The notes below the pieces were generated by a model that saw only the letters and a program-made list of their open reading frames with translations, had not been told where the DNA came from and did not search any database. A stretch of DNA of 64,000 nucleotides, taken from contig CP099844.1 in assembly GCA_030062745.1 (NCBI GenBank), forward strand, positions 21,576,596 through 21,640,595. The letters are read 5' to 3'. The stretch comes from Capitulum mitella. Lineage: Eukaryota > Arthropoda > Thecostraca > Pollicipedomorpha > Pollicipedidae. Both the position numbers and the translations under genes were made by a program. Below are positions 2,650-54,600 of this stretch, one piece after another. Each line of letters starts with the position of its first letter. Positions within the stretch are counted from its first letter, which is position 1.

Positions 2650-4713
2650 CTGAGAGTTTGTACCCTGAACATTCATTCACTGAAACCCGAGACGATCGAG
2701 CTCCGCCTTGAGCTAGAGTGGTGCAAATACGAAGTTCTCCTCGTACAGGGAATGTGATTATCCCCGCGTCTGAGCAGTCGTCTTCTCGTCTTTCTCTGAT
2801 ACCCTTACGAGAGCCGACCGCCCTGACGGGCGAGATTACGGCGGGGTTGCTATCCTGTGCAGAAGCGACATTGAGATCAGTGTTTTGAAAACCCCTGAAA
2901 ACCAACTGATTCTGGAAGTAAAATCGAGTTCCTGTGGAGTCACATCAAGTGGGACCGATATCAGCTGGTGCTCGCGGTCCTGTACCGCCCGCCGCGGCAC
3001 ACTCAGGCAGCTCTCGACGCGGACCTCAGTGGACTAGAAAAACAACTCCAGTTCGCTCATTTGAGCTTTTCACGGATGCCCAGTTGCGCTTGCAGGTGAT
3101 CGTAGCTGTAATGTGCTTGGTTCACTTGGCCGTATTAAACTTAATGATTTTTAAATTAGACATAGTCTGACGCATTTCGTCACTTGTGCGACGTTTTCAT
3201 CAGGACCATTTCTAGATGTCGTGGTCTCTAACTCAGCGGGTGTTTTCAAGCGATCCGGGGTCTTTTACTTTAGTCCTTTGGTTCACTTTGGTCTTTCATT
3301 TTAGTCCTCATAGGTTTCTACGTTTCGCTCTTACTATTCCTAGACCTCGTGGTAAGCGGGCCGTTGTTCAAAGTAGGTCTCTGCGTAACATTTATGCGTC
3401 CATTCTGCATGCCGATTTGCAGTTCACTGACTGGAGTGCCGTATTTGGTTCGGAAAGAGTATTTGGTCAGCGGGAACGTTTTCTTGAATTGTTCGTTCCG
3501 ATTGTTGATTTTCATGTGCCACTGTGAAATCCCAAAATCCGGAACCCGGCTGCACCCCCCGTCACGCGCGCCACCAAGCACCTGATGCGCCGCCGCCGTA
3601 CAGCGTTACGGACCGACGGACATGGCTCCGACGCGTACCTTAATGCAAATAGGGCTGTACGATCTGCTATCCGTAGCGTCTGCAGGGCGAATATAACCAA
3701 CCTTATCCGTGATGAAGGTCCTCACTCAGCTTGGCGAAACCTCCGGCATTTCGTCGATGGTAAGCGGCCGTTACAGAAGACCGTGCTGTTTTTTTGAAAT
3801 TGAAATTAAGAATTGGTATCTCCGGACGATATGCACGAATACTTCGTGGGAGTCGGCCCCAGGGTTGCCCGCGAGGCGCGGCTATAGAGAGACGAGCCGC
3901 GGATCCCATGCAGGCGGCCGCGGGTGGGGGCGTGCGCTTGTAAGGTCTCCCCGGTCGATTTGCAGACGCCGTCGAGCATTATTCTTAGTATGCGTGGCAC
4001 CTCCGCATGGATGGGATCTGCGTTCGGCGTTCGTACCATCAAGGCTTGTCTGCCTGTTATTAGTCCTATCTTGCTCCACATTGTTAACTCGTGCCTCCTC
4101 CGCTGTGATCTCCCTGACGAGTGGAAACATTCACTCTTCAGTCCTATCCACAAGTCCGGAGGTCCCTGCAATCCTTTCAGGTTCAGACCAGTATCAATTA
4201 TCCCCGTCATATCCAAAATGGTTGGGCGCATTGTACAGCGCCAGCTCCATCACTACACATCGCCCTTAAACATTTCCTTTCTTATATCCAGCATGGCTTC
4301 CGCACCTGTCATTCTACGGAAACGTTTCTGATAGCCGTCTCCGACCGCGCTCTTCTGGTTATATGATGAGAACCAAATCTCGCTTGTCTGCCTGCTCGAT
4401 TTAAGTCAATGTTTTGACGTCATAGATCATTCGAAACTTCTCTTCAAACTTCAGTTGCATGGTGTGGATACTGCATGGTTCGAGGCGTACCTGCAAAACC
4501 ACACGCAGGATGTCAGCTTTACAGACGCTTCTGGCTGCAGGCAGAACTCTACCGCGTTTCGTAACAACCCTGGCGTCTTCCAGGGTTCGGCGGTAGGTCC
4601 GGTTTTGTGTACCATCTTTTCAAACGACCTCAGCCTGTTCGTGCCGGGTGCAGGCGTTATTCAGTTCGCGGATAACACCCAGGTCAAAGTCTGCGGCCAC
4701 AGGAGCGCCCTAG

Positions 4714-4765
<52 letters not shown>

Positions 4766-5735
4766 AATAATATATAATAAATAAATGAATAAATAAATAA
4801 ATATAATAATAATACCCCAGGCACATGGAACGGGCACTCTTCTCTCTCAGCATTTGCTTCTGCGCAAATTCTCGGAAACTTAGCCCTGACAAAACACAAT
4901 TGATTGCTTTCGGCAGCAGACAGAATTTGCGTAACGTAACATCATTCGGCGTGGAATTTCGTGAGCGTACTATACAACCCGTCCCCGAAGTAAAAAATCT
5001 AGGGATGATCTTTGATCGCCACCTATTATGGAACGCCTATGTACAAGAAATGATGCGCAAATTCCTGTGGGCCCTTATTGGCGTGTCACATATCCGTCAT
5101 TATCTTCCGGCCGAGACCCTCCCGACCATGATAACCGACCTGGTGGTGTCTCGCGCCCGCTGCTGTATTCCAGTACATGGCAACGGCGACCGCAAGAATC
5201 TTGCCAAGATTCAAAAGGTTTTGAACTTAGCCGCTAGAGTCATATCTGGGAGGACGAAATTTAGCCTGCCAGCGAATGTCTAGGCTAAGGTGGTTGGAAG
5301 CGAAGGATCTTTTCAAATATCACATGCTCGCCGTAATTCACAAATTTCGTTTGCATAAGGTTCCAGTGGCCATTTCCTTCACTTTGCGCAAACGAACCGC
5401 AAGGCACGAGTTAGGAGCACCCGCCAGGATGACGATCTGCGCCTTCCATCAGTCAGAACGGAGGCCGGGAGACGCCGGTTTTGTTGTCGTGGACCGGCAC
5501 TGTATAATACGCTGCGCAAAATGCAGGTGCCTCGTTGTCATCGCGCTCTGAAATGTTTTTTTTTTCTTTACTTGGCAAAGGACTGAATTGACAAAAATGA
5601 CTGAATTGCCCAGATCGTCTCGTGAGTGAATGTCGTGTACCATGTAGTTTGATCTTGTGAAATGGGCAAGAAATAGCCACAATTGTGCAGATTTGCCCAA
5701 ATAAATCGCATGGTGTGGTATGGTGTGGTATAAAT
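2650..5735 (+). mobile_element. decayed CR1/L2-like non-LTR retrotransposon
   Basis: Pieces appear in the order expected of one LINE second ORF. An apurinic endonuclease part at about 2655-3060 shows CTLNIHSLKPE, then YGGVAIL and AVLYRPP, in several frames. A linker follows at 3585-3790 (ANITNLIRDEGPHSAWRNL). The reverse transcriptase part at about 3925-4710 contains FRPVSIIPVISK, QGSAVGPVL and FADNTQ, where the usual catalytic pair is ADD. Thumb and C-terminal parts run from 4860 to 5450 (SPDKTQLIAFGS, VKNLGMIFD, IQKVLNLAARVISG). Stops, frameshifts and an inserted (TA)n at 4717-4762 make it non-functional. The 3' end is probably near 5735, where two tggtgtggta decamers follow an aaataaa. The CR1/L2 clade is a judgement from motif style; a Jockey-type element is possible. 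Confidence 0.85.
4717..4762. repeat. (AT)n microsatellite inside the LINE
   Basis: About 23 AT units followed by an A/T-rich tail (ataataatatataataaataaatg) that splits the reverse transcriptase frame. Confidence 0.97.
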
Positions 5736-5739
5736 GATT

Positions 5740-7180
5740 CGTTACGTCTTCGACAGCTTGACCTTGCTACAGTCTGAATACCGCTTCCGGTAAGTTTCCA
5801 CCACATGCGGAAACTGCTGCGGCTGCTCATGTTTTGTGAGATGTGCCACATAGTCCAAGATGAGTTTGGTGAACGCGAACGACGCTGACCTGCGTCGTTC
5901 GCGACGTGGACACTGGTGGCGAACGTCACCAGTCGACGGTAACCAGGTTCCCTGTCCCACGGGAGAGGCTTGTCGAGGAATGCTGTGCTGATTTCCAGGC
6001 GTTCAGAGATTGTGTTAGAGGCTGGTCTTGCGAAGTCGCGCACTTGAATGTTCTTGATGTCATCTACGTAAGAAGGCAGTACTTGGAGTTAGATACACGA
6101 TACAGGATACAGGATACACGGTTGCTGTTTCGCATGCTGACGGGTGTCACTTGCTAGTTGTTTTTTGGCTGCACTTTGTTATTGACATTGTTGCTTGTTT
6201 GTTGTTGACATTGTTGCTCACCAGTGCCATCGGTATCAACTCGTGTGTAAGGTACCATGTGCACCTTTTCATGGTGTTCATGGCTGCATCGGCGACTGCG
6301 GCGTCCATCGTTCCGAAGATTGCCAACGTTTCTGATGCTTGGTGGGAAGGCGACGGCGTCAGTGAACACGTGCCAGAATTTGGCGTTTGCAACAAAGCGC
6401 ACAGGATGACCTGCTTCCTCAATGGAATCAAGCTGTTTATGCATCGAACCCAGAAGCTGGCATTGGGTGTTATCTCACAGAAGACATACGACCAGCTGGA
6501 GAAGTTTGCGGCATACATCTGTCCATTTTGCATGCATGAGTGGCTCATCTACACGGTGGCACAAGATGCAGCCGTAAATGACACCCAGCTGCACAAGATA
6601 TTGGTCATCTTCAGAACGATGGACGCCGCAGTTGCCGATGCAGCCATGAATACCATGAAAAGGCGCGTCGTGCCTTACAGAAGAGGCATTACCGGTGGCA
6701 CTAATGAGCAACAATGTCTCAGACGCAGCCAAAAACAACCGGTGAATGACATCCGCCAGCATGCGAAACAGTAACCGTAGAATCGGCAGGGAACTTCAAC
6801 TCCCAATATTTCCCTCTTATGCAGACGACATCAAGAACATCCAAGTGCGCGACTTCGCAGGACCGGCCTTTAGCACAGCCTTCGAAAGTCTGGAAATCAG
6901 CACAGCGCTCCTCGACAAGCCTCTCCCGTGGAACAGGGAACCTGGTTACCGTCGACTGGTGACGTTCGTCATCAGCGTCCGCGTCGAAAACGACGCAGCT
7001 GAGCGCGGCACCAAACTCATCTTGGATTATGTGGCATATCCCACAAAACATGATGAGCAGCGGCTACAGCTTCCGCAGATCGTGGAAGCTTGCCGAAAGC
7101 GGCACTCAGATTGTAGGAAGGCAACGCTGTCGAAGACCAGCGGTAACCAGTCACTGATCGGCATGCATCAGATGCAAGAA
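5740..7180. repeat. inverted repeat of a protein-coding repeat
   Basis: The left arm (about 5740-6325, read on the minus strand) and the right arm (about 6600-7180, read on the plus strand) encode the same polypeptide. Shared strings include LEISTA, LDKPLPW, REPGYRRLVTF and the stretch around LILDYVA with a following KRYSDC or KRHSDC. The central 6325-6600 acts as the loop. Frames are broken in both arms, most clearly in the left. I remember similar repeated hypothetical proteins with VVNDAAERG-like motifs from invertebrate genomes, but I cannot name the family. This looks like two copies inserted head to head, or a foldback element. Confidence 0.75.
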
Positions 7181-7852: not shown

Positions 7853-8582
7853 AACCTCCCTAACATTTTGCCTTTTTGAACCAGTCTAGGATTAAACGTT
7901 GCTGAGCAGCGGGCTGTTTGCTGCTCTGGCTGTGTAATTCTTCGTTCGAGACAAACACCGCTGTCATCGCGACGACGGGGTGTTGCGCGCCGTTCTGCCC
8001 GGTTCGTCATTGGAGTTTGTGCCCCGCTTGAGGGCAGCAGTGTGAGGGCACTTGGCCTGACAGTCTGTTGACGGTGCTGTCGGTGGCGTTCCGCCCCCGC
8101 CTCCTCTCCCCGGACGCGGCAGGCTCCGTGAGTCCGGCTCCGCCTGTCGGGCCGTCGGCCGAGGTGTCGCCGCGCCGGCGAGATGCGGCCGCCGATTAAT
8201 GGGAAGTCGGAGAAAGGTGTGAGCAGCCGGTCGGCTCGGGGACGCCAGATCTGTCTCGGGTTCCGCGGACCAGCGCAGCGCGTGATATGTGAGTGGGGGT
8301 GCGGAGCCGCGCGTCGGCGGCGTTACTCTGTCACACCAGAGCGCTGGCTTAGTGGGCACCCGGACCTTGGCCGGCCACCCCGCCGCCCGCCGCCGAGTGG
8401 ATGGCCTCTCCGGACAGACGATGGAGGCCCGCCGCCGAGTGGGTGGCTTCTTCGGACGGACGAATTCGGCGTTCGGAGAAGGGGATGTAATCCGCCGTCG
8501 TGTGGTGCCGGCCAAGTGTGGCTGACTTTTCCGCGAATTTCGCCCGAACGTTTGCGTAAGCCGTCGTCGGGACCCTAACTCC
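7853..8582. other. no gene supported
   Basis: GC-rich from about 8040 to 8480 with CCGCCGCCGAGTGG-like short direct repeats. The long minus-strand open frame here has no recognisable domain and an Arg/Pro/Thr-rich composition, as expected by chance at this GC content. Confidence 0.5.
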
Positions 8583-8642
8583 TGGGCGCCGAATGACCCT
8601 GCAGTCGGTGCGCCCCTAAGCCCCAATAACCAACCAACCAAC
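8583..8642 (+). mobile_element. ultra-short retroposon, copy 1
   Basis: A ~60 bp insertion made of a GC-rich head able to fold (gggcgccga pairing with tcggtgcgccc, loop atgaccctgcag), a linker (cctaagccccaat) and an (AACC)n tail of about four units. It is flanked by the perfect 15 bp direct repeat cgggaccctaactcc at 8568-8582 and 8643-8657. The core is identical to the copies at 12930 and 15747. Short size, variable tail and long target-site duplications fit LINE-mediated retroposition. Confidence 0.9.
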
Positions 8643-8657
8643 CGGGACCCTAACTCC

Positions 8658-10672
8658 ATAGAAAGCATGAACAGACAACAGTCTTGCTGACCAGTGAATC
8701 CGAATGGGTGATTCCGTCTCTGCCAGGGAGCGAAATGTTGCTGAGGAATTTCACATATGGCCCAGCCTTTGACACGGTCTCTCCGTGACCTTGGTAACCT
8801 GTTCTTTATCTCGTATACGGCATTGCTGGCTCCCTTTAAGAATGAGCTTCGTGACCGTCGTGCGTCGGCGGTGACCCGTAGGCTAACGTCGATGACCATG
8901 CCTGTTTAGCAAGTCACGACACCGTGTTGGTGGAGGGCTGCCTGCTCCTTGTCGGTCTGGCACAACGGAGACGTAAACCATTGTTCGTCAGTCGACCCGG
9001 TCGGCGTCCGTCTTTCGTTAGCCTCGGCGTCACTCGCTGCCAGAGAAGTACGAGCCTGTACTTCTGACAAAAGCTCAGATGGAGCCTGATCGACACAGAT
9101 GTGCCGGACTCGGACTCGGACTCGGGCGGCGTCGGACTTGGACTGGGCACTGTGACCCGTTCGAAAACGTCCGGGCGGCCGTCCTGACGGTGTGTGACGA
9201 TTGGCCGCGATCTGCGGCTTCCGCCGTGTTTGGACTGCGGTCTGTGAACTGGATCCGGACTTTGCGCGCTGCCCGGCCGGGGATTGTTGTTGTAACTGTT
9301 GCTTGCTTGCGTCAGCCAGTGACATTGATCGGCTGTACTTCGGTTTAATCCCGTCAGAGATATATATCCTGGAAGATGACCTGGTACACCTTCGGAGCTA
9401 ACACGAAACAGCAAATTACCTGGGAAATGGTGAGAGTACTTACGTTCGTCCTTTCACTGCCAAATGGTAAATGGTTGTTTTGCGGGCAGATGTTCTGAAC
9501 TGACTTAAAAACTTCTTTCCAAGAGGTTTCTGGGTGGGAGAAAATTTATCCGTGATGATGTAGCCTAAACGGGTCATCACGCAGACTCAACAGCAGTTGT
9601 TCAAAGGCATGAAGGTAGAGTAGTTCCTCAGCGCTGGTTTATGCCGCATGACGCACACGTTCCTGTGTTACACGTTATCCGGTAGCAAAAGACACGGCCG
9701 TTGTTTTGTGTTGGTAGCATTTGACGTCGTTGTTCCGCTTTCTTTTCTTCTGACCTAACGCCGCGATGAACATTTTTGCTACCAGGCAGGTTTTTGCTGG
9801 GTATTTACTAGGTAGATATCTGTATAAAGCCAGTGGTATGCCGCCGCTGTAGTCGGTACCGACCGAGGTATCGACATTTGATTTTGGCTTGGATGAAACA
9901 TTGAGAATCGCCATTTTACCGTGGTTTTTGCATCGCAAAGCCGATGCAGTTTTTGAAATTGTACTTTTGAACAATAATCAACATTACAGCATGTGGATGA
10001 ACAAGGTTCTAGGCTAGGATAGCGTATAAGTCTGATGAACTGTCCTCTTGAGCTTCATGATCACATATGTTTGAACTTCATGATCACATATGCGCTTGGG
10101 TTTTCACTTACTTTCAGAAATCCAGGATCTACTCGACAATATGCACAAGATATTCTCATGATGTGTAAATTATGCCAGAGGTTGTGCCAAAATCGAATAG
10201 ATTTGCGTAAATCAAGACCCGCGATTTCATACAGCTGCCAAAGGGTCTAGGATTACTTTTGTATCCTGGGACCTCCTACATGAATGATAACAGGAATAAA
10301 TACGGACCAGATTGGCAGGGGCCATGGAGGACCTATACATGAGCGCTGAAAAAGCGAGATCACAAGCTAGAGAGTCGTGCTGTGCACGCTCACAAACACT
10401 GACACGCAAACAGGACCATCCCAACACGATCTCATCAAAACTTGCCTCGTTTTGCCGACTGGATAATGTGGCTGTGGAGTCAAGGCCCGTTGAAGCGAGA
10501 GTCTTGTTATTTCTTTAGCGCGCGAATGGAGCTATATGTTTTGTTACCGTAGCGATGTTTGCGCTAAATTCTCAGATACGTAAAAAATACGTTTGCTTTT
10601 TGTTAAAATGCGGTATTTGACGAGCCTTCTGAAGGTTATCTTCTTGAAACCTGCCGTCATCACCACCACCGC

Positions 10673-10675
<3 letters not shown>
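8658..10675. other. no gene supported
   Basis: Mixed-composition intergenic DNA. The 17 bp segment cttcatgatcacatatg is present twice in tandem at about 10053-10092. Open frames near 8900-9415 are short and unlike any family I know. Confidence 0.5.
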
Positions 10676-10745
<70 letters not shown>

Positions 10746-10773
10746 GTCAGCGTCAGCGTCAGCGTCGTCGTCA

Positions 10774-10834
<61 letters not shown>

Positions 10835-10884
10835 TCGCCGTCATCGTCATCGTCATCGTCATCGTCGTCGTCATCGTCGTCGTC
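10676..10884. repeat. compound TCA/TCG trinucleotide array
   Basis: About 22 TCA units (10676-10745), a short CAGCGT segment, then about 20 TCG/GTC units and mixed TCA/TCG units. All frames stay open across it, which creates artificial poly-Ile, poly-Met, poly-Asp and poly-Arg frames. It is a microsatellite, not coding. Confidence 0.97.
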
Positions 10885-12929
10885 AATTTTATTAAGCATG
10901 TAATATGCAAAAATAAAATTCGGGTCGGCCCAAAAGTCAGAATTTGTTTAGCGTGCCCCTCACAGTTAATGGAGCGGTATAAACCCCAGCAGTTACTAGT
11001 AAAAGTGCCAGCAGTAAGTTATGTGATGGTGAATGTGCAGGTCTGGACACCAGTTCGGCATTTTCTTTGACGGAGTTACACTTGGACCGAATGGGATCTA
11101 GTTACAGAGCGTGGGGTTACATCTGCCCTGTATGTATGAAGTTACGCCACTGTCCAAGGTGAATTTGACACAAATGAGCACTGCAGTGCAGAGGTCACTG
11201 ACGCCATGGGTAATGTCCGTGTTTAAGAATGAGGAAGACTGAGTGCCGTTAAGGCGGCATCGCCTGGCGTGTTTTTATACCCGCAACCGCCGGGGGTGTC
11301 AAAAAGGGCACCCCCTGTTATCTCAGGCTCTTACCGTCGGATCTGAACTGGTCAGTTGAGAGCCCTGAGTCTTCGCATTTGGGAAATACTTTGTAAGCAC
11401 TGATCACGTGACTGAGTATGTTACAAGTCACGTAAAACGCATGGCACGACATTGGAAAAACTGACACCGGTTCGCACATCATATCACCAGCATTACTGGT
11501 CTTAGAACCCCCATTTTGGTATCAAACGAAAGGTCACGATCCCCCTTCAACAGAAGCGTGCTAGGATGTAACAAAAATGATGGGTCAAAGTCGGCCTAGT
11601 TCATATGAAATATTGGTATTACTTTACATGCCAAAGATCGATACTAACTCACAGCCGTTTCGGTTCATGTGACAAAAAGGAGGGAAGTGAAACTCCCCTC
11701 CTTTTTGTAGATCAGGCCAGATAAGGTTGCATTACTCTTCCTTCCAAACAGTACCTTTTCGATAGGATTCTTAACTGTGTAAGTACAGAACTGAAATGAC
11801 ATCTCGTGATAATTAAATCTGCTCTGTCTGCTCCTTGTCGGGTCAAGGTCAAGCCAGGTCAGGACAGGAAGTGATTTTTTCTTTCTGACTAGGAACAGGG
11901 AGTGCTCTCTGCTGCTCCTGAACTATCTTCCACTGACATTGTTGCATTTCATTCGTTTGGACGTCAACTTCTGACGTGACCTGACATGACCTCACGTTGC
12001 ATTTGCCGAGCCTTGCCAAGAGGCACATATAGATTTGTTTGTCTTGCTTGAACGATGGGGAAGATCAGCGGCAACCACTTCTATCACCCACAATGCAAAT
12101 CAATCCAGTTGTCATCATTCATGTGACCTAGATGACCTGCCTCAAATGTTGACGTGTCTTGATTGTGTATCCTTTCGGGGACCGTGTCCTTTGTGGATCC
12201 AAATAATTCATGCATTATACCCGCGAATGTTACAAAAAAAAAAACGAAGCATGCTCTCGCCACCGTCCGAAGAGGCGGAAACATGCGCGCAAGGATTCAC
12301 GATGGCGTCATACCTCCATGACCAAACCGAGTATGGAAGTGGTTTTGATGTCGAAATATGTTGAATTGATTGGTGCTGAAAGTTGGATTGCACTGGCTTT
12401 AACGATTCAGAAGTTATTCATGAAAACCGAGTGGGGTGCCGTCTTTGACACCGTCAGACGGTGCCGGGTTAAATGGTAGTTTGAAACGCTAAAAAACGTT
12501 TGTTATCCGGGGAGAACCGCCGTTGTAAGCTTATTTTTCCGTCATGTGTCCTGTAAGAAGAGGTCATAGGTCACTGACTTGTCAAGATTTCGACTTCAGA
12601 TTCTGACACGATGCGTGATAAGGCTGAACACTCAACTGTGCAGTTTCAAAGGATCGCAGCAGTCATTCTGGGGAAACTTACGAAAAACCTCAGGGAGTTC
12701 CCCCCCACTGGCGATGGGAAGTAATGGGATTAGAGCACTTTACTGGCCGGCCTGCGTGCTGACTCAGTGTATGTGCTACCTGGAGTGCCTTGTTTGGCCG
12801 GAAGACGCTGGCACGGTGAACTTACAGGGTGTGTTCGTGACTAACTTCAGGAATAAAACTGCTGGCGGAAAATAACTGTCACTCGCAAGGCACCAGCTGG
12901 CCAGATGCTGTGTGACGGTATTGACTTTT
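10885..12929. other. no gene supported
   Basis: Non-coding by appearance. It contains a short hairpin at 11672-11708 and nothing else I recognise. Confidence 0.5.
11672..11708. repeat. short inverted repeat
   Basis: The arm acaaaaaggaggg pairs with ccctcctttttgt around a loop of about 11 bases. Its function is unknown. Confidence 0.85.
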
Positions 12930-12986
12930 GGGCGCCGAATGACCCTGCAGTCGGTGCGCCCCTAAGCCCCAATAACCAACCAACCA
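12930..12986 (+). mobile_element. ultra-short retroposon, copy 2
   Basis: Same head, linker and (AACC)n tail as the copy at 8583, about 57 bp. It is flanked by the perfect 15 bp direct repeat acggtattgactttt at 12915-12929 and 12987-13001. The tail is shorter than in copy 1. Confidence 0.92.
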
Positions 12987-13001
12987 ACGGTATTGACTTT
13001 T

Positions 13002-13730
13002 CCTGCATGCAGTAAGTTTCAGACAGTTTTCTTTGTTTTTATTTGGCCCGTTTTTTCTAACATCAGCCCGAACATCTATTTCGATATCTTCGCGAGCTTT
13101 TCGCAGGGAAAACCCGATTGGAAAGATTGCTGCCATCCCTGCACCGCGTGTGATGACAGTTTTGATGGCGTGATGACGTGACCAGCAGCCCCCATCATCC
13201 TGTTTCTTGATGTCTTCGACATTGACGACGCCTAATACTTCTCCGAGGTCATGAATATGGTCATTGTTCTGCGTATTCCAATGGACTAAAAGAGCAAGAT
13301 AATTTCACAAAACCACTTCTCATACGTCACTTGCGACATCTTCAGTAAAAAGTGGAACAAATTCTCGGACTGGAGTCCTGTGAGGTCCACGTGCAATTGA
13401 GATCTTGTAGCGCGTTCAGTGTGTTACCCTTTTGTTAGCATTACATTGGCATGGCGCCTTCTGCACACGGTTTTCCGACTAGCGCTGTTCTGGGTAAACC
13501 GATCCCGTGTTATTCCTTGACTCGATGTCTTCCGTAGCGTTCTGGCGGCGTGTTGTCGTAGATGACGTTGCACTCACAGATGGGCTGGTGGCTCATCGTC
13601 CGTTGGAAACCCCGGGACTGCTGCCGTCCGTTGCGGTGAACGGGGCACCGAGCAGCCAGCCGAAAGAATCCGCACGGAACGCCGCCGATTCTGGCCGACA
13701 GGGACCGACTGGGCGCCGGGTCAGCTCACC
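13002..13730. other. no gene supported
   Basis: Unique-looking sequence without a convincing exon. Confidence 0.5.
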
Positions 13731-14100
13731 TAGGGGGTTGGTCGGGGTGCCAGTCAGCTGACCCGGGGGACCGGTCGGGGTGTCCGACCAGCTGACCCAG
13801 GGGACCGGTCGGGGTGCCGGGTCAGCTGACCCAGGGGACAGGCTGGGGCGCCGGGTACGCTGACCCAGGGGACCGGTCGGGGTGTCAGTCGGCCGACCCG
13901 GGGGACCGGTCGGGCTGTCCGGACAGCTGACCCAGGGGACCGGACCAGCTGACCCAGGGGACTGCTCAGCTGTCCCAGGGGACCGGTCTCAGCGAATGGT
14001 AACCAACCCTTCTGGGTCAGTTGACCTGGGCCCCGACTCCTGGGTCAGTTGACTCCCTGGGTTCAGCTGACCCGGGAACCGGTCGGGGCGCCAGTCAGCT
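13731..14100. repeat. GC-rich minisatellite
   Basis: Degenerate units of about 30-35 bp built on cagctgacccaggggaccgg and tcggggtgcc, roughly ten copies. The CAGCTGACCC block recurs in both slightly shortened and extended forms. Confidence 0.9.
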
Positions 14101-15746
14101 GATTCAGAGGGGTTGTTTACGATCACGGTCCGCTGAGGCTGTGTCCTGCGGTCCGCTGAGAGCAGCGTCACAAGGGCTTCCATCTGTGGGGATCCAAAGA
14201 CTGAGGGGCGCGCGTCGGACCGCGAGGAGTCGTGCTGACGGGCGCGCCGTCGCAGAAACATGGTAGCTCTGGGGTGATGCCTCAGGAGGCCACCTCATGT
14301 GTCTCCGTGTCATCTGCCTGTGGCTCTCTCTGTCTGCGGCAGGGTATCCGGACCTCTTTTCTTGTTGAAATTTGCATGCCCAAAAAGCCACCTCGCGAGA
14401 AGCTTGAAAGTCGGCACCGGTCTGGCAAGTGTAGACCATCCTTATTTTGTGTAAAGATGAACGTCTGATGCCTCTAGTGTTTTAAAGGACACCCCGGTGC
14501 CTAAGCCGGTCGCCGTAAGCTTTTAAGGTCGGCGTCATTCGCGATTTGGCTACCTTCGACGCAGGGTGCGACCAGACAGTCATTTCTAAGCCTGACGTGA
14601 TGGAGTAATGGAACAAAAAACTAGCTGGTGACTTGCTGGTTTGGCTACACAACGATGTCCATTTTGACAGTTTTAGAGCTTGCAAGCGATTGCAACGGAG
14701 GTCATGCCATAAGATTCTGGTTTTCGTGGGATCCTATAGAAAATAGGAATAACCTGGTACGATATGAAGGGTTTAGAGCGGCTTCTGACGATGAAATAAG
14801 ACTGAAACTAATGCTCCTATGCAAATAGTGTTTCCGATTACGTCATGGTCATTGATCACATCTCTCACATCATGATAAGTAAAAAGGCCATTGACCTCGT
14901 TCTTGAGTTTAGCCTTAGATGGCCTTGATCCAGGTAAGTAGCGGAGCCCAGGGGCAGTGACCACTGACACTGTTGGTAACATCCTTACATAATAAGAATG
15001 ATTAAAATTGATCATCGCAAAGGAATTTAGGCGCATCTATACGATGGCAATCATCATTGTATCATTTCTTCGTGGCATGGCCTGAAGAAAGATGTCACGG
15101 TCATTGATTTGTCGAGGCATTGACCCCAAGTATTCAGGGAATACGCAAAAAGGCTCCGGACTCAGCAGCTATACAAAATTTCAGAGGAATATGAACAGTC
15201 GTTACAGGGCAGCCTACGAAAAACGTCGGATTTGCACCAAACTCTCTGTACTGGCGAGGGTTAAAGCGCAGCTGATGCAGATTTCTACGACCTGGTGAGT
15301 TGGTATTGGGTCCATTAAGATGGTGAGACCAGACTTGCTGGCGGGACCGAACAGTGGGGGTATCCCATGGAACTGAAAATTGCTGGAACCCACTGGCGAT
15401 GGCGGATAAACACTCCTGATATTTTGTCAAGAGGAATATGCATAGCATGCGGAAATCCAGGGCGTGATTCGCTATTGGATATTACAGGGAAAAGAGCGCC
15501 GAGCCCTTTCCACTGCAGGAACTTCGTAGGTTTGCTGGAACATGTCCTGCCTGAATACAGAAAACTCCCAATATCAGATAATGGGCGACAGTGTGCTTTC
15601 TTTCAAACGCCATATGTCGTGCTTTATAATCGAGAGTTCTAGGAAGACCTCTTGCACGAAAGTGGAGATTCATACTAGTCACTTTCTGGATATAGCACGG
15701 CCCCCCCCCCCCCCTCCCGAACAAGACGTACCACATAACATCACCT
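14101..15746. other. no gene supported
   Basis: No recognisable exon. A run of about 12 C residues lies at 15702-15714, just left of retroposon copy 3. Confidence 0.5.
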
Positions 15747-15799
15747 GGGCGCCGAATGACCCTGCAGTCGGTGCGCCCCTAAGCCCCAATAACCAACCA
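15747..15799 (+). mobile_element. ultra-short retroposon, copy 3
   Basis: Same core as copies 1 and 2, about 53 bp with the shortest (AACC)n tail. It is flanked by the perfect 14 bp direct repeat acataacatcacct at 15733-15746 and 15800-15813. All three copies have the same orientation. Confidence 0.92.
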
Positions 15800-16149
15800 A
15801 CATAACATCACCTTCTGCGCAGTTTCGGGGTGTTGTGGTTGGACGGACACCATTACGGTAGGACGTTACTCATCGCGATATTCTTTGCCGAAACCCGATT
15901 GGTAAGGCGAATCCTCCCGTGTGGAAATTTCGGGCTGAGTAGCGGTGTACTGGATTTGTTACAGGATGCTTGTCAGATTATCCGGCGATTCCTGGTGACC
16001 GCATCGTCCTGCGCTCAGTTGGAGCCGGCCGGACAGCGGTGGGGAGGGGGAGGGGGCTCCCTCTCCCGTATCCGCTGGCGGGGGAATTGTGATGGAGTCC
16101 CGGAGTTGGTCACGGGAAGTTTGCAGTGTGGTTGGTAAGGTGAGATCTT

Positions 16150-30000: not shown

Positions 30001-32080
30001 GGCTCATCGGCCGCGGCCCGGCCGTGTACTTGCTGATGGCCAGCGGCAACAGCACCTGCAGCGGACTCATCGGCACCGCCATCAGCGCCAGACGGTCCTT
30101 TGGCACGCCGGCCTCAATCAACTTCAGACCGGTCACCGCGTCAGCCGCGGCAAACCCCACCTGTCGACAGTAGGGAGTACTCAGGCCCGTCAACGACAGC
30201 TTTAGGCCGGTCACCGCGTAGGCTGCGGTGACCTGTCACTGTGTATTCCCTGTCAAGAGCAGGGAATACACAGGCCCGTCAACAACAGCTTCAGACCGGT
30301 CACGGCACGTCCACATCAGCCACGGCAAACCTTAACTGTCAACGACAGACGGCACAAATACCTGTCGGCAACAGATGGCACATGGACTTGTCAAAAACAG
30401 ACAGCACAAACACCCATCAATACAAGACACCACAAAGACCCATCTACAACAGACACCACACAAACATCCCAAAAAAGACAGCACAAATACCCATCAAAAA
30501 CAGACACCACACAGACCAGCCAACAGCAGATACAAAGACCAGTCAACAACGGAGAACCTATTACAGACAGCCGAGCACACGGACCGGTGAACAACAGTTT
30601 CAGCACCCAACCTCCCCCTCAACAGCAGCCACGGTGCCCGGAGCGCCGGCCGGCCGCCGACTGACCTTGGCCGTAAGCAGGATGGCGATGAGGGTGCGCA
30701 CCGGCCTCAGCTGGGTGATGGCCACCAGCTGGGAGTACGTCTGCGCCACGCTCATGTCCGGGTCCCGCGTGCCGTCCCGGTTCAGCGGCGACTCGCGCTT
30801 CACCAGCATCACCATCGTGGTGGTCAGCAGGAACACCACGCCCCAGAACAGCATGAACCCTGCCCAGCGAGAGACGGCACGGTGAGGCGGCTCCATGAGC
30901 ACTCCATCACGCGACAACGTGATGGGCGGCCCCCCACTGATCGATTCCACGGCGCGTTTCTTCCAAATCTGTCGACTCCAATACGACGTGGTCAGTGGCG
31001 CAGCCAAGTGTGTGGAGGGCCTCCTTTGGCCCGCATTTTTGTGAAAACCATTGCACATCGTCTTCCCGGAAGACGGTTTTCGTATGACTTCAATTCACAG
31101 AGCTCCGGCCCCTTCCCCATTAGAAAATCCTGGCTGCGCCCCTGGACGTGATCACACAATAACTGCCCGGAAGATGGAAGCTGGAGACCAGCTCTGGACG
31201 CGGAATCAGACTTCACGAGCGGAACAGATGAATACGGAATGCACACAAAACCTTCGGCGCGAGAAAGCGCAAAGCAGAACCAAAAATCTAAACGTCTGCG
31301 CTTTAAATCGCGGAGGGTGCAACGGTGCTTTTCAGCCGAGGTTCCCGATCGGCACACAATGAAATCGCCAATCAGGCAGACCTCCTCCCGGCGGCCTAAT
31401 CGCGGCTACGCCCGCGCGGCGGCCAGCCGGCACCCACCTGAGAAGGTGACCAGCCCCTCCGGCTGGGGCGCCGTACGCAGGTACTTGTTGCAGAACTCGG
31501 CAGACTCCAGCGCAATGAAAACGACGAAGCCAAGGAAGTAGCCGGCGCTCTGGCCGACGCTGTTGCACGTGCTGGCGTGGCCGACGTTACGTTTCTGGAG
31601 GATGGTCAGCGCCCAGCCGTCGACGGCGATGTCCTGCGTGGCGGCCAGGAAGTTGAGCGAGAAGAAAACGGCCGTCAGCAAGGTGACGTTGGGCCGCTCG
31701 TCGGCGGCGCCGATCAGCGTGCGCGCCGAGACAGACAGCACCAGCATGAAGACGCCGATCAGGTACTGCACCGGCACCAGCCACGACTTTCGTCGCCCGA
31801 ACCGGCTCACGTAGCAGGCGTCCACCACGGGCGCCCAGAGCAGCTTCAGGCTGAACGGCCAGTACACGAAGCTGAACTCGGCCTGCTCCGAGTAGGTGAC
31901 GCCGCGGTTCTGCAGCATCATCGGGATGGCGGCGGCCAGGCCGAGCGGGATGCCCTGCAGCACGTACAGCAGCAGCAGCAGGCAAATGTTGGCCACGTCG
32001 CCGGAGAGGCCGCCGCCCTGCTGGGCGTCCGGTGGCGGAGCGCCGTCCCTGGCCATCCCGTCTCCGCCACGCTTCCTCAT
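27049..32080 (-). CDS. SLC33A1: acetyl-CoA transporter 1 (SLC33A1, AT-1)
   Basis: A complete gene of six exons: 32080-31438, 30859-30666, 30160-29976, 29573-29344, 28879-28788 and 27216-27049. All introns are GT-AG and phases agree (1, 0, 2, 1, 0), giving about 503 residues; the human protein has 549. The family moves acetyl-CoA from cytosol into the ER lumen for protein acetylation. Diagnostic strings are LQGIPLGLAAAIPMML and SLKLLWAPVVDACY near the N-terminus, then ATQDIAVDGWALT, GFAAADAVTGLKL, KYTAGPRP, HQVTLYSM, GGTYMTLLNTVTNLGGNWP (spanning the exon 4/5 joint) and SLDGYYIESVVC near the C-terminus. Multiple membrane segments of the major facilitator type are evident. The chosen ATG at 32080 precedes a short Arg/Asp-rich cytosolic leader; a second ATG eight codons on is an alternative. 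Introns 2 and 5 carry minisatellites. Confidence 0.96.
27240..27780. repeat. minisatellite in SLC33A1 intron 5
   Basis: About sixteen to eighteen degenerate units near 33 bp, built on ccaggacacagtgaagac and ctggaccag. It starts only about 25 bp upstream, in gene sense, of the last exon's acceptor. Confidence 0.93.
28495..28740. repeat. degenerate short repeats in SLC33A1 intron 5
   Basis: Recurring ggaccaca, ggaccacc and ccactgccgtggac-like words at irregular spacing, next to exon 5. This is a weakly ordered minisatellite. Confidence 0.6.
30240..30272. repeat. perfect 13 bp hairpin in SLC33A1 intron 2
   Basis: The arm tgtgtattccctg is followed by loop tcaagag and its exact complement cagggaatacaca. 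Confidence 0.93.
30280..30600. repeat. minisatellite in SLC33A1 intron 2
   Basis: About ten degenerate units of 24-28 bp built on caacagacagcacaaacaccc. An earlier 20-30 bp duplication (cccgtcaacgacagctt) extends to about 30180. Confidence 0.88.
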
Positions 32081-33700
32081 GGCCCCCTGTCGCCCGGCGC
32101 CGCCCTGTCGACCAGCGTCGCGTCACGACGGCACCCTGAGGCATGGCACAGTCAGACATGCATGCTAAGGCAGAGCGATATCACGCTTTGTTCAATGTTG
32201 CTGAGCACCAAACTGCATTTCACCGGGCCATGCGGGTTTGCAAAAAGACTGCCTGAAAAGGTCTTTTGTATTATTCCTGAAACTTCATGCAGTTACAGTT
32301 AACAAAACAGTGGTTTGCTGTGCAAAAGACTTGTTGAAAATGGTGGCTAGTGTCCAGGCACCATTAGAATTCTGCCACCTGAAAAAGCATAATTTGCATT
32401 TGCATGCAAAAAGTCTTTCACCTTGCCTCTGCCTGCATTAAACTGAATTACATCTACTCCCATGCAACATAGCATCATCACTTGATCAACTGTGTCAAGG
32501 GACCTTAAGCACAACATATGAAGAAGAAATGCCTCACAAATGTTTGAAGTTAAGGGAAGTCAGATCAGCTTTCAATAATTACATACAAATAATGACATAA
32601 TAATTATATACAAAGCAAGTCGATTGAAAAGATGTAAATGTAGTGTGTCAATCCAGACAGATGGTAGATATTGACAATATGTTTATTATAATATGGTGCA
32701 CATTCAAAAAGACCTAATGTACTTCAGGGGAAACATTTTCACTTGGGTACAAGCAATGAGAAAACTCCAAGCCATACTGACCAGAAATTGGCTTACTGTA
32801 CACTGCATCTCGTGGATTTCGGACAGACAGTTCTTTGCTGACAGCCGACTGTGGTCTTGTGATTATGGCAGCAAACAAAGCCATTCTTTGATACAGCCAG
32901 CCACTTCATCCAAGGAAACTTTTGCGGCACGTAGCGACCCTAGTAATTAATACCACAGTCTTCAAAGTCCATAGCATTTCATTTCAAGCCAGGATCTTCG
33001 CAAGCAGATCCAAAGGCTTAATTAAGATTCTGGAGCATAATTCCATTCCTCTAAACTCACCAGAGCCGTGATGTGTGCATGTGCATACCAGAAGAGATAT
33101 AGGCAGGATACAAATACAGGAAAAAAATAGCAATGCTGCTATGAAATGGTACACACCGCCCATTCAGTGGTAGACAATCCTGAGACATCAGTCCCACTCT
33201 GATGCACATATGCCAGTTTCTGCCAGGGCCACAGGTTCTGCTACCGAACAATATGAATGAGTTTTCCTTGGCTCAGCATTGATGGGGGACAGTCAGATTC
33301 AGACTTGGACTCAAACTCAGACGCATGTCACAGCCGTCCGCCATTGGCTCGCGGCTATTACGGCCTCACCTCAAAAAGACAAAACATGAAGTTGGTGGTC
33401 GTCACAAACATACATTACACGCAATCACTGTCATTTGAACGACCAAAAAACAAGATGCAACAAAACAAAATAATGATGGATGGCACATCACCCTTGGTCT
33501 CTGCATAGGTGGTGCCTCATGCCGCGACGAAATAAGGACACGGAGAGCCGCGGCATACTGTGCGGCAAACAGTTGATATGCTGCATCGCACGGAAGCAAA
33601 AACGTTTCCGGCCCAACTCCGTACGAGATCTCGGCGCATGTAGATTGCCATCCTGTCCGGAGTGCCGGTCGCGATACTCCGCCACACACGAGAACTCAGT
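32081..33700. other. upstream flank of SLC33A1, AT-rich beyond 32.2 kb
   Basis: The first ~60 bp upstream of the start codon are GC-rich and presumably hold the 5' UTR/promoter. From 32160 the DNA becomes AT-rich with no recognisable exon on either strand. Confidence 0.5.
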
Positions 33701-40080: not shown

Positions 40081-41370
40081 CGAAATCCCAGAATATCGAG
40101 AAGCTGATGTGAGTGCTGGTGATCCTCGTACGACCTGGCTCGTAATACACTGTAATAAATGATTGTCACGTTTTTTTTTTGTAAGAACCTTCGCCTTGGC
40201 AGACAGGAGCTTGTGGCATTAGGGAGAGTATAGACATTTTTACATCCTCCATGACCACGGCTCTTTTATGCCTGGTGGTCCTGGTGCAAAACTTTTGCCT
40301 GCAAAACTTTTGCTTGCCTGCAAAACTTTTCCATTAGAATACAGCTGAAGAGTGAAACGCACAGCCATCTGTAGGTATATATCTACATATCTTCAGTACA
40401 TGGGACGTGAGGAAGTTCAGAGTTAAAGCCTGATACAGCTCTCCCCCCTTTAATAGTGTTTCTGAGGAGCCCAGAGTGACGTCTGGCACTGCACAGGAAA
40501 AAGCTGATTAAGCTGTGGAAATCGGCGCCTCCAGGTACTTGAAAAGTGTGAGACCAGTATATGTAAGTGTAGTATCAACAGAAGTGGGGGGAGGGATCGG
40601 GGCAAAGGATTAATTATTATTTTGCCCTTAACTGTGCAAGTCATTTGTCGAAAGTCAAATTAACCCTTTCGCGTTGCATGGGAAGAAATGGCTCGAAAAA
40701 GGGCCGGTGCTCTCCCCCTTGCCGGAACACATTCGGCCGCTCGTGGATCAGTGGTCCGAATGCATAAATTTGACGAAAGATAAATTTGGCCCGAGTTGGA
40801 CCTAAGTGTGGAAGTCACTGACGCACTCGCATAACATCGTGTAGGAAATACCGCAAAGGCTTGAAACAATTGTTATAACCTAATAAACGACTATCGCCTG
40901 GTCATCATTTCTCAATTACGTGTTTACAAAGACTTCGTACTAATAAATGCAACTAAATGCAGAATGCTAGCACTCGTGACAAACTCAGTGCAATATGCCA
41001 GTCAAGGTCGTTCCGACTTGAAATTCCCTGATGTCTTTGACAATTCCGTCCAACCGCATTGCTTCCAAGTTTATCTGATATCCTCTGAAAAGTTATACTG
41101 AGTGGAAGCATACTTTTCTGCAAGTTACAGTCATGGCTTGGTAAAAAGTAGATGCTTAAAAAGTCGAAGACCATGGAAAAAAGTGTCGCAGGGCTTAAAT
41201 TTTGCAATACCCTATGACAGGTTTACACCTATCATATTTTCACCTATTTTCAGCAGCGAATATCATGGGCTTAACTCCTTAATTCCGGACATTTTATGAA
41301 GATCTGATTGTAGCATTTTCATCCACCAGAATGACAGTATTTTAGGTTGTGGACCGGTGTCGTCACCAAG
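40081..41370. other. no gene supported
   Basis: AT-rich DNA without recognisable exons. The words cctgcaaaacttttgc and cctgcaaaacttttcc recur at 40290-40335. Confidence 0.5.
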
Positions 41371-42508
41371 ACGTCCTCGGGACTATTTGGTACCAATTGC
41401 TACTAAGAAGGGAAAGTTTTTTAGTACGAATTCGAACCAAACTTGGCGCGGGTTAGTACTGGAACGTACTAAACGCTGCAGGAGGGCTGAAGGGAAGGAT
41501 TCCACGAAAATCAGGGCGCTGTAGTGACGGAACGTCATGTACATGCTCCGATCGAGTAACATCGACAACACTTCGGCACAGTTTGACATTGGCAGCCATT
41601 TTCGTGCCCTGTGCGAGTGCGTTCGGCCAACGCGCCATTTCAGCGGCCTCGGTTACGATACTAGCCGGTACTAACGGTTCGTGCGAGATGTTTCGGGTTA
41701 GAAGCCGGGCTTGCGGGATGCCGTGAAGCAACACTCATCTGGGAAGCTGAATTTTGTGGAGAGTGATGGGTGAGTGAGCGTTCTTTTAGTTTGGAGGCCT
41801 GGGGATGCGGAATATTGTTCCATGGAATTTTGTGACAAACTATTACATATTTGTTTACAGTAGTGTACTGAATTTCCGTAAGGGGGGGGGGCACTGACCG
41901 TTGGTAATCCTTTAGAAGCGCGCGCCATAAACCAAGCACACTGGATGACACATATACGGCGCGCGTGGCAAAAGGAGACGTCAGCTGTTGCAAGAAACAA
42001 CAACATTATGCACTGGAGCTCCAGGGTCGTGGATCACCTACTATTCGCTAACCTAACCTAACCTAACCTAACCTAACCTAACCTTACCTAACCTAACCTA
42101 ACCTAACCTAACCTACTGTGTAAAACAAGAGCGAATAGTAGGTGATCTACGACCTGGAGCTCCAGTGCATAATGTTGTTGTTTCTTGCAACAGCTGACGT
42201 CTCCTTTTGCCACGCGCGCCGTATATGTGTCATCCAGTGTGCTTGGTTTATGGCGTGCGCTTCTAAAGGATTGCCGAAAATGGCTGCCGATGTCAAACTG
42301 TGCCGAAGTGTTGTCGATGTCACTCGATCGGAGTATTTACATGACGTTCCGTCACTACAACGCCCTGATTTCCGGCGAATCCTCCCCTTCAGCCTTCCTG
42401 CAGCATTTAGTACGTTCCAGTACTAACCCGCGCCAAGTTTGGTTCGAATTCGTACTAAAAAACTTTCCCTTCTTAGTAGCAATTGATACCAAATATTCCC
42501 GAGGACGT
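41371..42508. repeat. palindrome with telomere-like repeat loop
   Basis: The left arm (41371-42048) and right arm (42131-42508) are inverted copies of each other at high identity, judged by eye. For example, cctggagctccagtgcataa at 42160 matches the complement of the region at 42000-42025, and cgcgccaagtttggttcgaa at about 42430 matches the complement near 41425-41450. About 300 bp (41602-41905) are present only in the left arm. The 82 bp loop consists mainly of (CCTAA)n. Both arms can be read as the same short peptide frame, with no known domain. Confidence 0.9.
42049..42115 (+). repeat. interstitial (CCTAA)n telomere-like repeat
   Basis: Thirteen or so CCTAA units with one variant (ccttacc). 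CCTAA/TTAGG is the ancestral arthropod telomere repeat. Its position at the exact centre of a palindrome makes it part of an element, not a decayed chromosome end. Confidence 0.9.
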
Positions 42509-43720
42509 GTTGTCGTCACGGATACAAGTCGAAACGTCTAATAACCATACCATGCCTTGACCCAGGCGTCTGTCACCTCCGATGCTATCCACTCTGATGC
42601 TCTGACGCATCATACGTGTACGTCGATGACATGTCTTGGACGTAGGATAGTTTTTTTCTTATGGAGTAGCGATTTGAATAAACACAATTCATTTAAAAAA
42701 AATTCCCTTCAAGAACTACACCAGTTTATTTCTGAATATTTAGCTGTAAACGGTGATATGACTTCATGACGCCATAAGACCAAAAGTAAAAGGCATCTGA
42801 TACTGCCACAGACTCGGCATCTTATCTTTTCCTTGTATCGCTCATCAGATGGAGGAAGTCTGACGACCGGGAGAGGGAACTGTTGTGTCGCCGGTTTCGA
42901 ACACAAGGGGATCTCGGAAATGATGCAAGCCCATCACAACGAACAAAATAGAGAGCTTCGTGTATTCACGTATACAAATAATCCTTGGCATCCGTACAGG
43001 TCACTAATTAATAAATACTAGCTTTACAGCTAAAAATGTGCAGGGATGAGCCGAAGCAGCAACCGACTGAAACGTCCCGACAATGGCGGAAAGGCCAGAG
43101 GTCTCACTATTCAGGGGTCATCCACTGACTAGAAAGGGTCAACAGCAAGATTTTGACCGAGAGCTTACTTCGAGGGAAAATAATCGTAGTAGTGGTTGCA
43201 TGGCACTGCAAATGCAATATTGATAAGTACTACTTACGATTTCAGCCAGAAAAACCTGAAACACACATTATTTCCTCGAAACAGATTGCGTCGTCACTGG
43301 TATGCTAACCGGCAGACGCTCGCGTGGGGATTTTTGACGTTTCTGCGTTAAACAGTTGTTTACGTGAGATCTCGACGCTGATTGGTCGTCGGTCGGACTC
43401 AAGGTCCAATCAAGAGTAATAAAAAAGGTTGGGGAAATAACTAATACAATATAAATTACCTTTAAAATAAAAAAGTTAGTCGTTGTATCATAATAATAAT
43501 AACAATAATAAAATAGTGGTAATAATAATAACAAACAACAATAATAAAAAGTAAAAACATTGCAAAGATGCAAAAGTGAAGTTGCAATTTGAAAAATACA
43601 AAATAAAAATAAGAAGCAATGAAATAAAATATCAGAAAAAGAAATCACGGGACAAAACTGGAAAATATTAGGAAGTCAAATAAAACAATAAATAAAAATT
43701 TACCCCAACCCAACATGGTA
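42509..43720. other. AT-rich, no gene supported
   Basis: No exon recognised. At 43480-43560 there is a degenerate (AAT)n/(AAC)n simple repeat. Confidence 0.5.
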
Positions 43721-51625: not shown

Positions 51626-54600
51626 TCACGTGCCGGGAATGTGCGGCAACTCGTCATGCGTGCCCTCGCCGGTGATCAGCACGCAGACGGGCTCCGGCAG
51701 ACAGGGCCCGCTCAGCTCGACCACGGCCGAGTAGATGGCGCAGCTGGCCGGCTCGAACGCCACCTGCACGTGGGCGCGGCCGCGCGGCGCCAGCACGCCC
51801 AGCTCGGGCGTCAGCCGGAAGGTGGCGGCGTCCGGCAGGCGCGGCGCCGTGCGCGTGCTGCGTCGCCGCGCCGAGCGGGAGGTGGCCGACGTCTGCGGCG
51901 ACGGCAGCCGCGGCACCAGCCGCGACGTCCAGCTCAGCTGGCCGATGGTCGGGTTGATGACGTAGAAGCCGCGCCGCGCCACGTCGCCGAGCGTCACCTG
52001 CCCGAACTCGACGCAGGCGGCCGACACTTGCAGCGACGGCAGCACCAGCGTGCACTCGACCGGGAACGCCTGCACGTGCGAGTCCATGTACTGCAGCACG
52101 AGCCGCGACGTGAACCGCACGCGCTCCTCGCCGTGCTCGGTGGCCACGTGCTCGACCCGCACGTCGCGCAGGCCGTCGGCGGCGGCGCGCTGTCCAGCGG
52201 AAATCTCAGCCGAGCGAGCGCAGAGCAGCTGGCGCAGCGAGGCGCTCGGCCCGCACGCGCCCGGCGCCACGTCGGCCTCGGAGCGGGCCCTCCGCGCCGC
52301 GCCGGCCGCCGCCTCGCCGTCCGGCTCCGTGCTGGCGGCGCGCTCCGAGCCGGGCGGCGGCGGCGGCGACACGCCGTCCGCCCCGCTGCTGCCGCCGCTG
52401 CCGCTGCCGCTCTCGCTGCACTCCTCGGCGAACGGGCAATCGTCGTCTGACTCCGACTCGGCCGGCGACGGCAGCAGGGTGGCCTCGCCGGCGCGCGAGA
52501 AGCGGACCCGCTGCGGCCGCTCCAGCCGCTCCGTCAGGCAGAAGCGCAGCAGCGCGCGCGAAAACAGGAACTCGACCGTCAGCTGGGCGTGCCCGCTGCG
52601 TGGCACCGTGCACCGTTCGGGCCGCTCCACGGTCGCCCGCGGCGACGCGGCGCGCACCAGCGAGAACGGCAGCGTGCTCCAGCAGAGCACCTCCACGTCC
52701 ACCTGGTGTCGGTTGTAGAGCGTGAGCCGCGACTGCAGCCGCGACCGGCGAGGGCCCTCGACCAGGGCAGTGACGGGGCGCCACGAGGCGCACGGCGTCC
52801 GCCGAGCCGGCCAGCACCGGCGCCGCCCGGAACCCGACGGCCGCCGTCTCCGGGAAGCTGGCGTCCAGGTAGGCGGTGCGCAGCTGCGCGCGCAGCTGCA
52901 CCTGCACCGGCCGGCGCCGATAGCCGTCGGAGCGGCGCACGCGGCCGCCGTCAGGCGCGCCGTCCTGCGGCCGCAGCGACATGTGCGCCGTCAGCCAGGC
53001 CAGCACGTCCAGTGGCCGCTGGCGGCGCGCCCACTCCCAGTGCGAGCCGGCCGGCGGCAGGCACACTGGATGCAGCTGCACCAGCACCCAGGCCTTGGCG
53101 CGCGCCGGCACCACCACCACGTCCGGCGTGACCGTGTAGTAGGCCTGATCCTCCTCGCCGAACACGGGCCGCAGGTCGAGCCGCGGAGGCGCCGGCGGCG
53201 CGCGCCACTCCCACAGGTGGCTCAGCAGCGGCTCGAAGTCGACGCCCGCCGATACGTACGCCCGGAACGGCTCCGGCTGGCGCTCGCTCGGCGACGTCAG
53301 TGCCACGGCCATGTTCAGCTGGATGGGGCACGGTGACACGTTGTTGAGGCAGAGGTGGCGCGCCACCGGCGGCGCGCCATACAGCTGACAGCCGAAGCGC
53401 ACGTGGTTCGAGCCCGTGTTGACCACTAGCACCGGCGAGCCGGTGACGCCCACGCGCAGGTCGACGCGCAAGTCGGGGATGCCGTCGCCGGAGATGACCA
53501 GCTCGTCCTGGTACCAGCCCCACATGTCGGCGCAGCAGAAGACGCGCACCAGCGTCTGGCTGTGCGCGGCCACGCAGAACTGGGCGGGCCGCACGAGCAG
53601 CGCCAGGCCGCGGTTGTCCGAGAGCAGCTCCGACCATACGTCCTCTCGCTCCAGGTCGTTGATGCGCTTCACCTGCGCGGAGAACACCAAACTCAAAAAT
53701 CGCCGACCGCGACGACCAGCTTTACTAATGGGAATCACACGATATAAGCGGATATTTCAAATGCTTGATGCACGAATAAATGAATGAATGAGTGACGACT
53801 GAGTGTTGATTGATAAATGTATATATGAACTCGTGCAATGGTTTCTTTTACACATGGAAACGTGCTGACGACCCATGATCATATGAGATCACCAAGTGCA
53901 GGGTTCCCAACACCCCCACCATTACAGGCATGCTTCTCGTGCACCCGTGCATCTGAGCGTACCTCCACAGCCATGGGTGGCTCTCCGACCAGCCGCTCAT
54001 GGTCGCATCCGGGAAAGCTCACCACCCGCGCAGAGCAGTGGGCCGCGATCGGCGTGTCGTTCCGCACGTGGAATTCGCGCACCACCACGGTACGCACGTC
54101 CACGTCGTGACCAAACAACAACACCAGCGGGCCGCAGCCGGCCTCCTCGGCCTCCACCAGCTCCCACTCGGCCACCAGCTCGTCCACGGTCGGTTCCGGC
54201 GGCAGCTCCGGTTCTGGCTCCAGCCCCAGCTCCGGTTCCGGCTCGGGTTCCGGCTCCGGCGGCGGCGGCGGCGGCGGCTCCTCCTTGGCGCCTTTCTTCT
54301 TGCCCTTCTTGCCGCCTTTCGCGACCTTCTTTTTACCTTCCTTTCCCTTCGAGGACGTCGGCGGCGGCTCCGGCTCCGGCTCCGGCTCGGGCGGCGGCTG
54401 CAGCTCGCGGGCCGCCTGCTCCTCAGCCTCGCGCGCCTGCCGCTCCAGCTCCTGGCGTCGGCTGCGGCCCAGCACCTCGCGTGCCTCGCCCAGGTCCGGC
54501 ACGCCGGCCGGCCGGTGGCCCCAGTTGGGCGCGATGTGCACCGACGCAGAGAGCGCGATCACATCACCGTAGAGCGTCAGACTGGCGGCGTCCGAGCCGT

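Follow-up and report, generated by a model that had tools for sequence, protein, structure and literature searches.

Short insertions in Capitulum mitella that are probably tail-only retroposons matching the 3′ end of a LINE

The window analysed here is a 64-kb stretch (contig C6, 21576596–21640595) of the Capitulum mitella assembly, which comprises 477,042,490 bases in 16 contigs, and it holds three short insertions, all on the plus strand, that share an identical 52-nt core (8584–8635, 12930–12981 and 15747–15798). A first-pass annotation, made from the letters of the window, had described these three insertions with one core and had given each its own perfect direct repeat of 14–15 bp, and both observations hold. 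Copy 1 (8583–8643), composed of T, a hairpin, CTAAGCCCCAAT and an (AACC)n tail, lies between exact 15-bp target-site duplications at 8568–8582 and 8643–8657; the first C of the left one may belong to the right-side tail, and the first C of the right one is common to the tail. Copy 2, with hairpin, linker and (AACC)n tail at 12930–12986, is flanked by exact 15-bp duplications at 12915–12929 and 12987–13001, and copy 3, of the same composition at 15747–15799, by exact 14-bp duplications at 15733–15746 and 15800–15813. The unit starts with the T ahead of GGGCG (8583, 12929 and 15746), which in copies 2 and 3 is the last base of the left duplication and possibly belongs to both duplication and element. 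No further or decayed copy of the core was found in the window beyond these three.

Three core matches occurred in 0 of 100 dinucleotide shuffles of the window, which excludes chance for the cores. When pairs were anchored at random in the window, 33 of 100,000 trials gave repeats of at least 13 bp. Exact repeats of at least 12 bp at a spacing of 40–500 bp form 54 pairs, three of which bracket the common insert; many of the others lie in tandem arrays, the pair at 44975/45053 having been inspected singly and the remainder not individually. Searches with the exact element patterns gave 0 matches in a viral contig collection and 0 in a genome contig collection from which the organism's own genome is possibly excluded. 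Copy 1 gave one sub-threshold Rfam match, to bxd_5, which scores 11 bits where the gathering score is 50 and is at chance level.

Across the genome, where all repeat counts are lower bounds, the core is present with up to three mismatches in 762 + 720 = 1,482 copies on the two strands, with 0 for a reversed-pattern control, and 379 + 371 = 750 cores are exactly identical. The family is real, young and abundant. Its sequence is the 3′ terminus of a long interspersed nuclear element (LINE) of the same genome, in which the end of an RNase H open reading frame (ORF) is followed by a short 3′ untranslated region (UTR) and then by the T, the hairpin and the tail. The LINE-hairpin junction is found in 142 copies genome-wide and a pattern 127 nt upstream of the hairpin foot in 144, and the near-equality of these counts indicates few breaks between the two positions. 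By subtraction of counts obtained with different patterns, about 1,340 of the 1,482 copies stop at the hairpin foot and practically none break within the next 127 nt upstream.

Inspection of individual copies resolved the 5′ end to the nucleotide. We examined 90 copies, made up of the 3 in the window, 30 loci and 57 of 70 further listed places (13 listed places were left out); all 87 fetched copies come from contigs C1 and C2 and had been listed because their core is exact. The short unit ending at the hairpin foot accounts for 83 of them. The other 7 run into the same upstream LINE sequence, 4 as called by script and 3, with one change, by eye and then confirmed. One short insertion appears at six places with the same flanks (L042, L053, L054, L079, L086 and L087), as if it lay inside a larger repeat; allowing for these six places and for one local duplicate pair leaves 77 independent short copies. 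Among these the base preceding GGGCG is T in 74, this T being the LINE's own base at that position, and the next base out is mixed. Duplications were recognized by script score in 71 of the 77, mostly of 12–16 bp; 54 are exact (9–16 bp, mode 14) and 17 have one mismatch. The duplication abuts GGGCG in 18 of the 71 (16 ending in T), is separated from it by one base in 46 (T in 45), and leaves more than one spare base (TT, TTT, AT or ATTTT) in 7. Tails contain 0–4 AACC units after AATAACC.

A second sample was chosen independently of the 5′ end. It consists of the 99 places on contig 1 with an exact match to the 3′ 32-mer (79 full exact cores and 20 others), a set in which one insertion recurs and one pair is a duplicate. 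LINE homology ends at the T in 84 of the 99 (83 by script and the point-mutated L114 by eye), and 25 of the 83 script-called ends match the LINE for 1–4 bases more, roughly the chance expectation. In 5 more the homology ends at the first G, in another 5 (L100, L103, L104, L115 and L119) it ends within the hairpin or a rearranged 5′ part, and in the last 5 LINE sequence runs on. LINE copies are rarer here than genome-wide (5/99 against 142/1,482) because many long copies are clustered on other contigs. Over the 43–80 nt compared upstream of the foot, not one of the 110 copies inspected in the two samples (90 + 20) has its end in LINE sequence.

These ends bear directly on the idea that the short class is unremarkable and reflects ordinary random 5′ truncation of the LINE. 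Such truncation fits the identity of the unit with the LINE 3′ end, the varied points (about 1.3 to more than 5 kb) at which long copies are cut, and the five contig-1 copies that end within the hairpin or are rearranged there. It does not fit some 1,340 copies, by subtraction, ending at one site, the absence of ends just upstream among the 110 inspected, or the counts of 142 and 144, and we consider it very improbable; random truncation is rejected, being contradicted by the one-base peak at the hairpin foot. That about 90% of copies stop at one nucleotide indicates that a discrete unit exists. The first-pass annotation had proposed a small-RNA origin and had named, as an outcome that would tell against it, the copies being the end of a longer element. 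That outcome holds only by half: the sequence is indeed the 3′ terminus of a LINE, but the copies are a discrete unit rather than random truncations. Its suggestions to count the core genome-wide, to check flanks for duplications and to look for a LINE ending in (AACC)n each proved productive, yielding about 1,480 copies, duplications at 71 of 77 independent short copies and the partner LINE.

The partner LINE is best represented by locus L095, the longest copy, whose ORF2 of 1,244 amino acids matches Exo_endo_phos_2 (8.4e-20), RVT_1 (2.5e-30) and RNase_H (2.9e-9) in Pfam, so that one long copy has endonuclease, reverse transcriptase and RNase H in a single ORF2; an upstream ORF of 566 amino acids has no Pfam match. 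We take it to be an endonuclease-reverse transcriptase-RNase H LINE of the I kind, among clades such as I, Nimb, R1 and others. The truncation profile of long copies comes from eight fetched loci, one of which contains 5,000 N. In five of them homology begins about 1.27, 1.73, 1.75, 3.1 and 5.3 kb before the end; L099 has an interruption at 2.4 kb, and in L096 the start is masked by N. Duplications of about 11–15 bp were seen by eye at three long copies (L014, L027 and the copy in L098). Some long copies seem to have been amplified together with their surroundings. Locus L096 (C16:5664300–5672299) has small-subunit and 5.8S rRNA genes about 7 kb from the LINE end within the same 8-kb locus, and the spacing of about 10 kb between LINE copies of this type suggests amplification with ribosomal DNA units.

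The relation between short and long copies can also be followed through a sequence variant, GACCG, which occurs four times: in LINE copy L123 and in short copies L120–L122 at different sites with different flanks. Its presence in both forms connects the short copies with LINE RNA, or else with each other, and makes an unrelated gene less likely. An independent SINE-like gene (SINE, short interspersed nuclear element) for a small RNA, sharing its tail with the LINE or having donated it, could produce a unit of fixed length in about ten times as many copies as the LINE. We regard it as an unlikely source of the short copies: among the inspected copies no source locus with its own promoter was evident, neither Rfam nor tRNA models match at gathering score, the GACCG variant recurs in a LINE copy, and the LINE itself has a T directly before the stem. 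A known small RNA as the origin is rejected on the same negative Rfam and tRNA searches. These also gave no tRNA, 7SL or 5S head of the SINE type at gathering score, boxes of an internal polymerase III promoter not having been scanned separately; the 53 nt are accounted for by the LINE end, and the initial description of the unit as far shorter than a SINE and without such matches is borne out. A self-cleaving ribozyme of the hepatitis delta virus kind was considered and set aside because 53 nt seem too short for all its helices; the ribozyme search was that of Rfam.

The structure of the insertions is that expected of target-primed reverse transcription, with duplications of variable length, a tail of variable repeat number, and a 3′ tail common to the unit and a LINE of the same genome. 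A DNA transposon or miniature inverted-repeat transposable element would likewise leave flanking duplications. Its ends, however, should be inverted repeats, which TGGGCG and AACC are not, and its duplications should be of fixed length; the exact ones here vary from 9 to 16 bp, the number of tail repeats varies, and the sequence is a LINE terminus. Such an element is rejected, its probability being close to nil. The first-pass reading of a recent retroposon inserted by target-primed reverse transcription is upheld by the duplications at 71 of 77 copies and the 750 identical cores.

The identity with the LINE 3′ end, the duplications of the short copies and of three long copies, the nucleotide-precise 5′ end and the many identical copies are established. 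On these sequence features we consider it probable, at about 0.82, that each insertion is a tail-only retroposon, consisting of the last 53 nt of the LINE (U, hairpin and CUAAGCCCCAAU) and (AACC)n repeats. The unit is a hairpin with its repeat tail, headless and without a known promoter, and is unusually small for a natural retroposon. Stringent-type mobilization via a cognate 3′ stem-loop is suggested by the fact that the unit is exactly that part of the LINE: the ORF2 protein would recognize the hairpin and nick the target, and priming on the AACC repeats would be followed by copying of the template. In published work, the 3′ end of stringent LINEs is reported to be a stem-loop followed by repeat units, and the ORF2 protein of those of the L2 clade binds its cognate 3′ stem-loop (PMC4176376).

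The predicted fold is consistent with such a signal. The minimum-energy structure pairs GGGCGC with GCGCCC in the outer stem and UGAC with GUCG in the inner one; the inner pairing of ccga with tcgg drawn originally is thus replaced in this fold, while the centroid fold resembles that drawing. A second young LINE (L144–L147; C14:20772819–20773618 and C11:4579834–4580623) ends in a similar way, with GGCG...CGCC enclosing an inner stem UGACC/GGUCG, then CUAAACCCA and (TAAG)n, and the hairpin plan common to the two LINEs, two families only, supports the modelled fold. The second hairpin occurs 74 times in the genome, 28 of the 74 with an RNase H match 0.6–2.5 kb upstream (from a list of 88); the remaining 46 could be tail-only copies or else LINE copies that are shorter or decayed.

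How the fixed end arises admits two answers. We see about an even chance that the 3′ end of the LINE transcript exists as a small RNA, with a defined 5′ end that fixes where the copies stop, and hold this to be a little more likely than a stop of reverse transcriptase at the hairpin foot. The small RNA would begin UGGGCGCC and could form by cutting, by exonuclease trimming to a protein-bound hairpin, or by initiation at the U. The one-base precision favours such an RNA end, as do the few extra T's, which look as if copying had run to an end. Alternatively, the template could be full-length LINE RNA on which some nine in ten copying events end once the hairpin has been copied, the enzyme being halted by the same protein holding it or by an adjoining second stem (UAACUUUUUU/GAAGAAGUUA). 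We give such abortive copying somewhat less than even odds. The stop coincides with a structural boundary, and the AAGUUA just upstream of the foot is predicted to be mostly paired in five of the six upstream lengths tried, the exception being 60 nt, at which its last two bases are mostly unpaired; the other tenth of copies are LINE copies of varied length, as expected of run-through followed by random truncation. However, the LINE 3′ UTR overall has no folding advantage over shuffles (z +0.66; 145 of 200 equally good), and the junction U is predicted to be unpaired with a probability that varies from 0.14 to 0.91 with the length folded. The ends at one base in 74 of 77 copies are in our judgement sharper than expected for a structural stop, and the analogous second LINE has no similar excess so far.

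Several results weigh against the tail-only interpretation or limit its reach. The hairpin exceeds shuffles in stability by a modest margin only (z −1.7; 14 of 200 equally good). The second LINE has its similar hairpin without a comparable, tenfold excess of short copies so far, a partial control from which it follows that a hairpin of this plan does not by itself account for the effect. Six of the 77 short copies have no clear duplication by script, no duplication was found on inspection of long copy L031, and the GACCG comparison rests on four copies. Short copies could also be templated in part by other short copies within host transcripts. A bolder reading, to which we give somewhat less than even odds, is a class of retroposon below the SINE: a discrete RNA, about 53 nt long plus tail and exact at its 5′ end, that the LINE enzyme inserts, judged by copy numbers, some ten times for each insertion of LINE RNA. 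Such an RNA would then act as a minimal substrate found in nature and might limit the LINE through competition.

The window contains another, old LINE remnant at 4600–5740, recognized by its reading frame and without a Pfam match, whose end could be examined for tail-only copies. Its last 185 bases have 40 matches in the genome including itself, the other 39 at 72–83% identity (40 of 52 candidates scored). Measured on the 185-base query, 38 of these 40 start no later than base 24 and the latest at base 34, so that none is confined to the end of the remnant; the test is weak, as short diverged tails would escape it. Inverted repeats at 5816–7064, whose arms reach 208 bp (86% complementary) and which have open frames on either side, are possibly a palindromic element or a duplicated gene. 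Farther along lie a GC-rich tandem array built of units of roughly 34 bp (13711–13980), coding stretches of an acetyl-CoA transporter gene on the minus strand (31406–32122), nested inverted repeats (94% and 98% complementary) flanking a (CTAAC)n, TTAGG-type telomere-like array (41367–42512), and coding stretches of a CFAP65-like gene on the minus strand (53879–57418).

The tail-only unit appears to be a mobile element pared down to its recognition signal, and it suggests that in nature a hairpin and a tail are enough for priming, copying and integration. With some 1,300 insertions of known end, nature has run an experiment on the way in which a LINE enzyme finds its template, primes on it and leaves it, and on the loss of LINE 5′ ends. 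Families near 50 bp would be missed by repeat annotation that ignores such short matches; two barnacle genome papers report only 3.2% and 3.5% repeats from repeat-library or prediction runs (PMC8917513, PMC8416341). No description of such a tail-only unit was found in searches of the open-access literature by sequence or by precedent, the papers matched by sequence containing only the plain CCAA repeat. The machinery is of a known kind, in a form that we did not find described in that literature.

The closest relatives of this arrangement are the SINE/LINE pairs of the stringent type (PMC3747384, PMC4176376), which similarly involve non-autonomous copies ending in the 3′ sequence of a partner LINE with short repeats. 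The SINEs tabulated for those pairs carry a head derived from tRNA, 5S or the LINE 5′ end (PMC3747384), whereas here the tail is the whole element. Ordinary 5′-truncated LINE copies also consist of LINE 3′-end sequence, and three long copies have the same kind of duplications as the short ones; truncation of LINEs has been reported at various positions, from 100 to 1,000 bp (PMC3747384), in contrast to the roughly 90% of copies that end here on one nucleotide at 53 nt. The short internally deleted elements (SIDEs) of Drosophila R2 and R1 are comparable in being non-autonomous, in not being transcribed by polymerase III and in retaining little beyond what the LINE machinery needs, and those at the R1 site have 14-bp duplications (PMC3414825). 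SIDEs nevertheless keep a 5′ ribozyme, the R2 example measuring 529 bp (PMC3414825), whereas Rfam finds no ribozyme match in this window. DNA copies of short RNA fragments are alike in process; those copies are tailless and thought to be made by L1, whereas the insertions described here carry the partner LINE's own tail.

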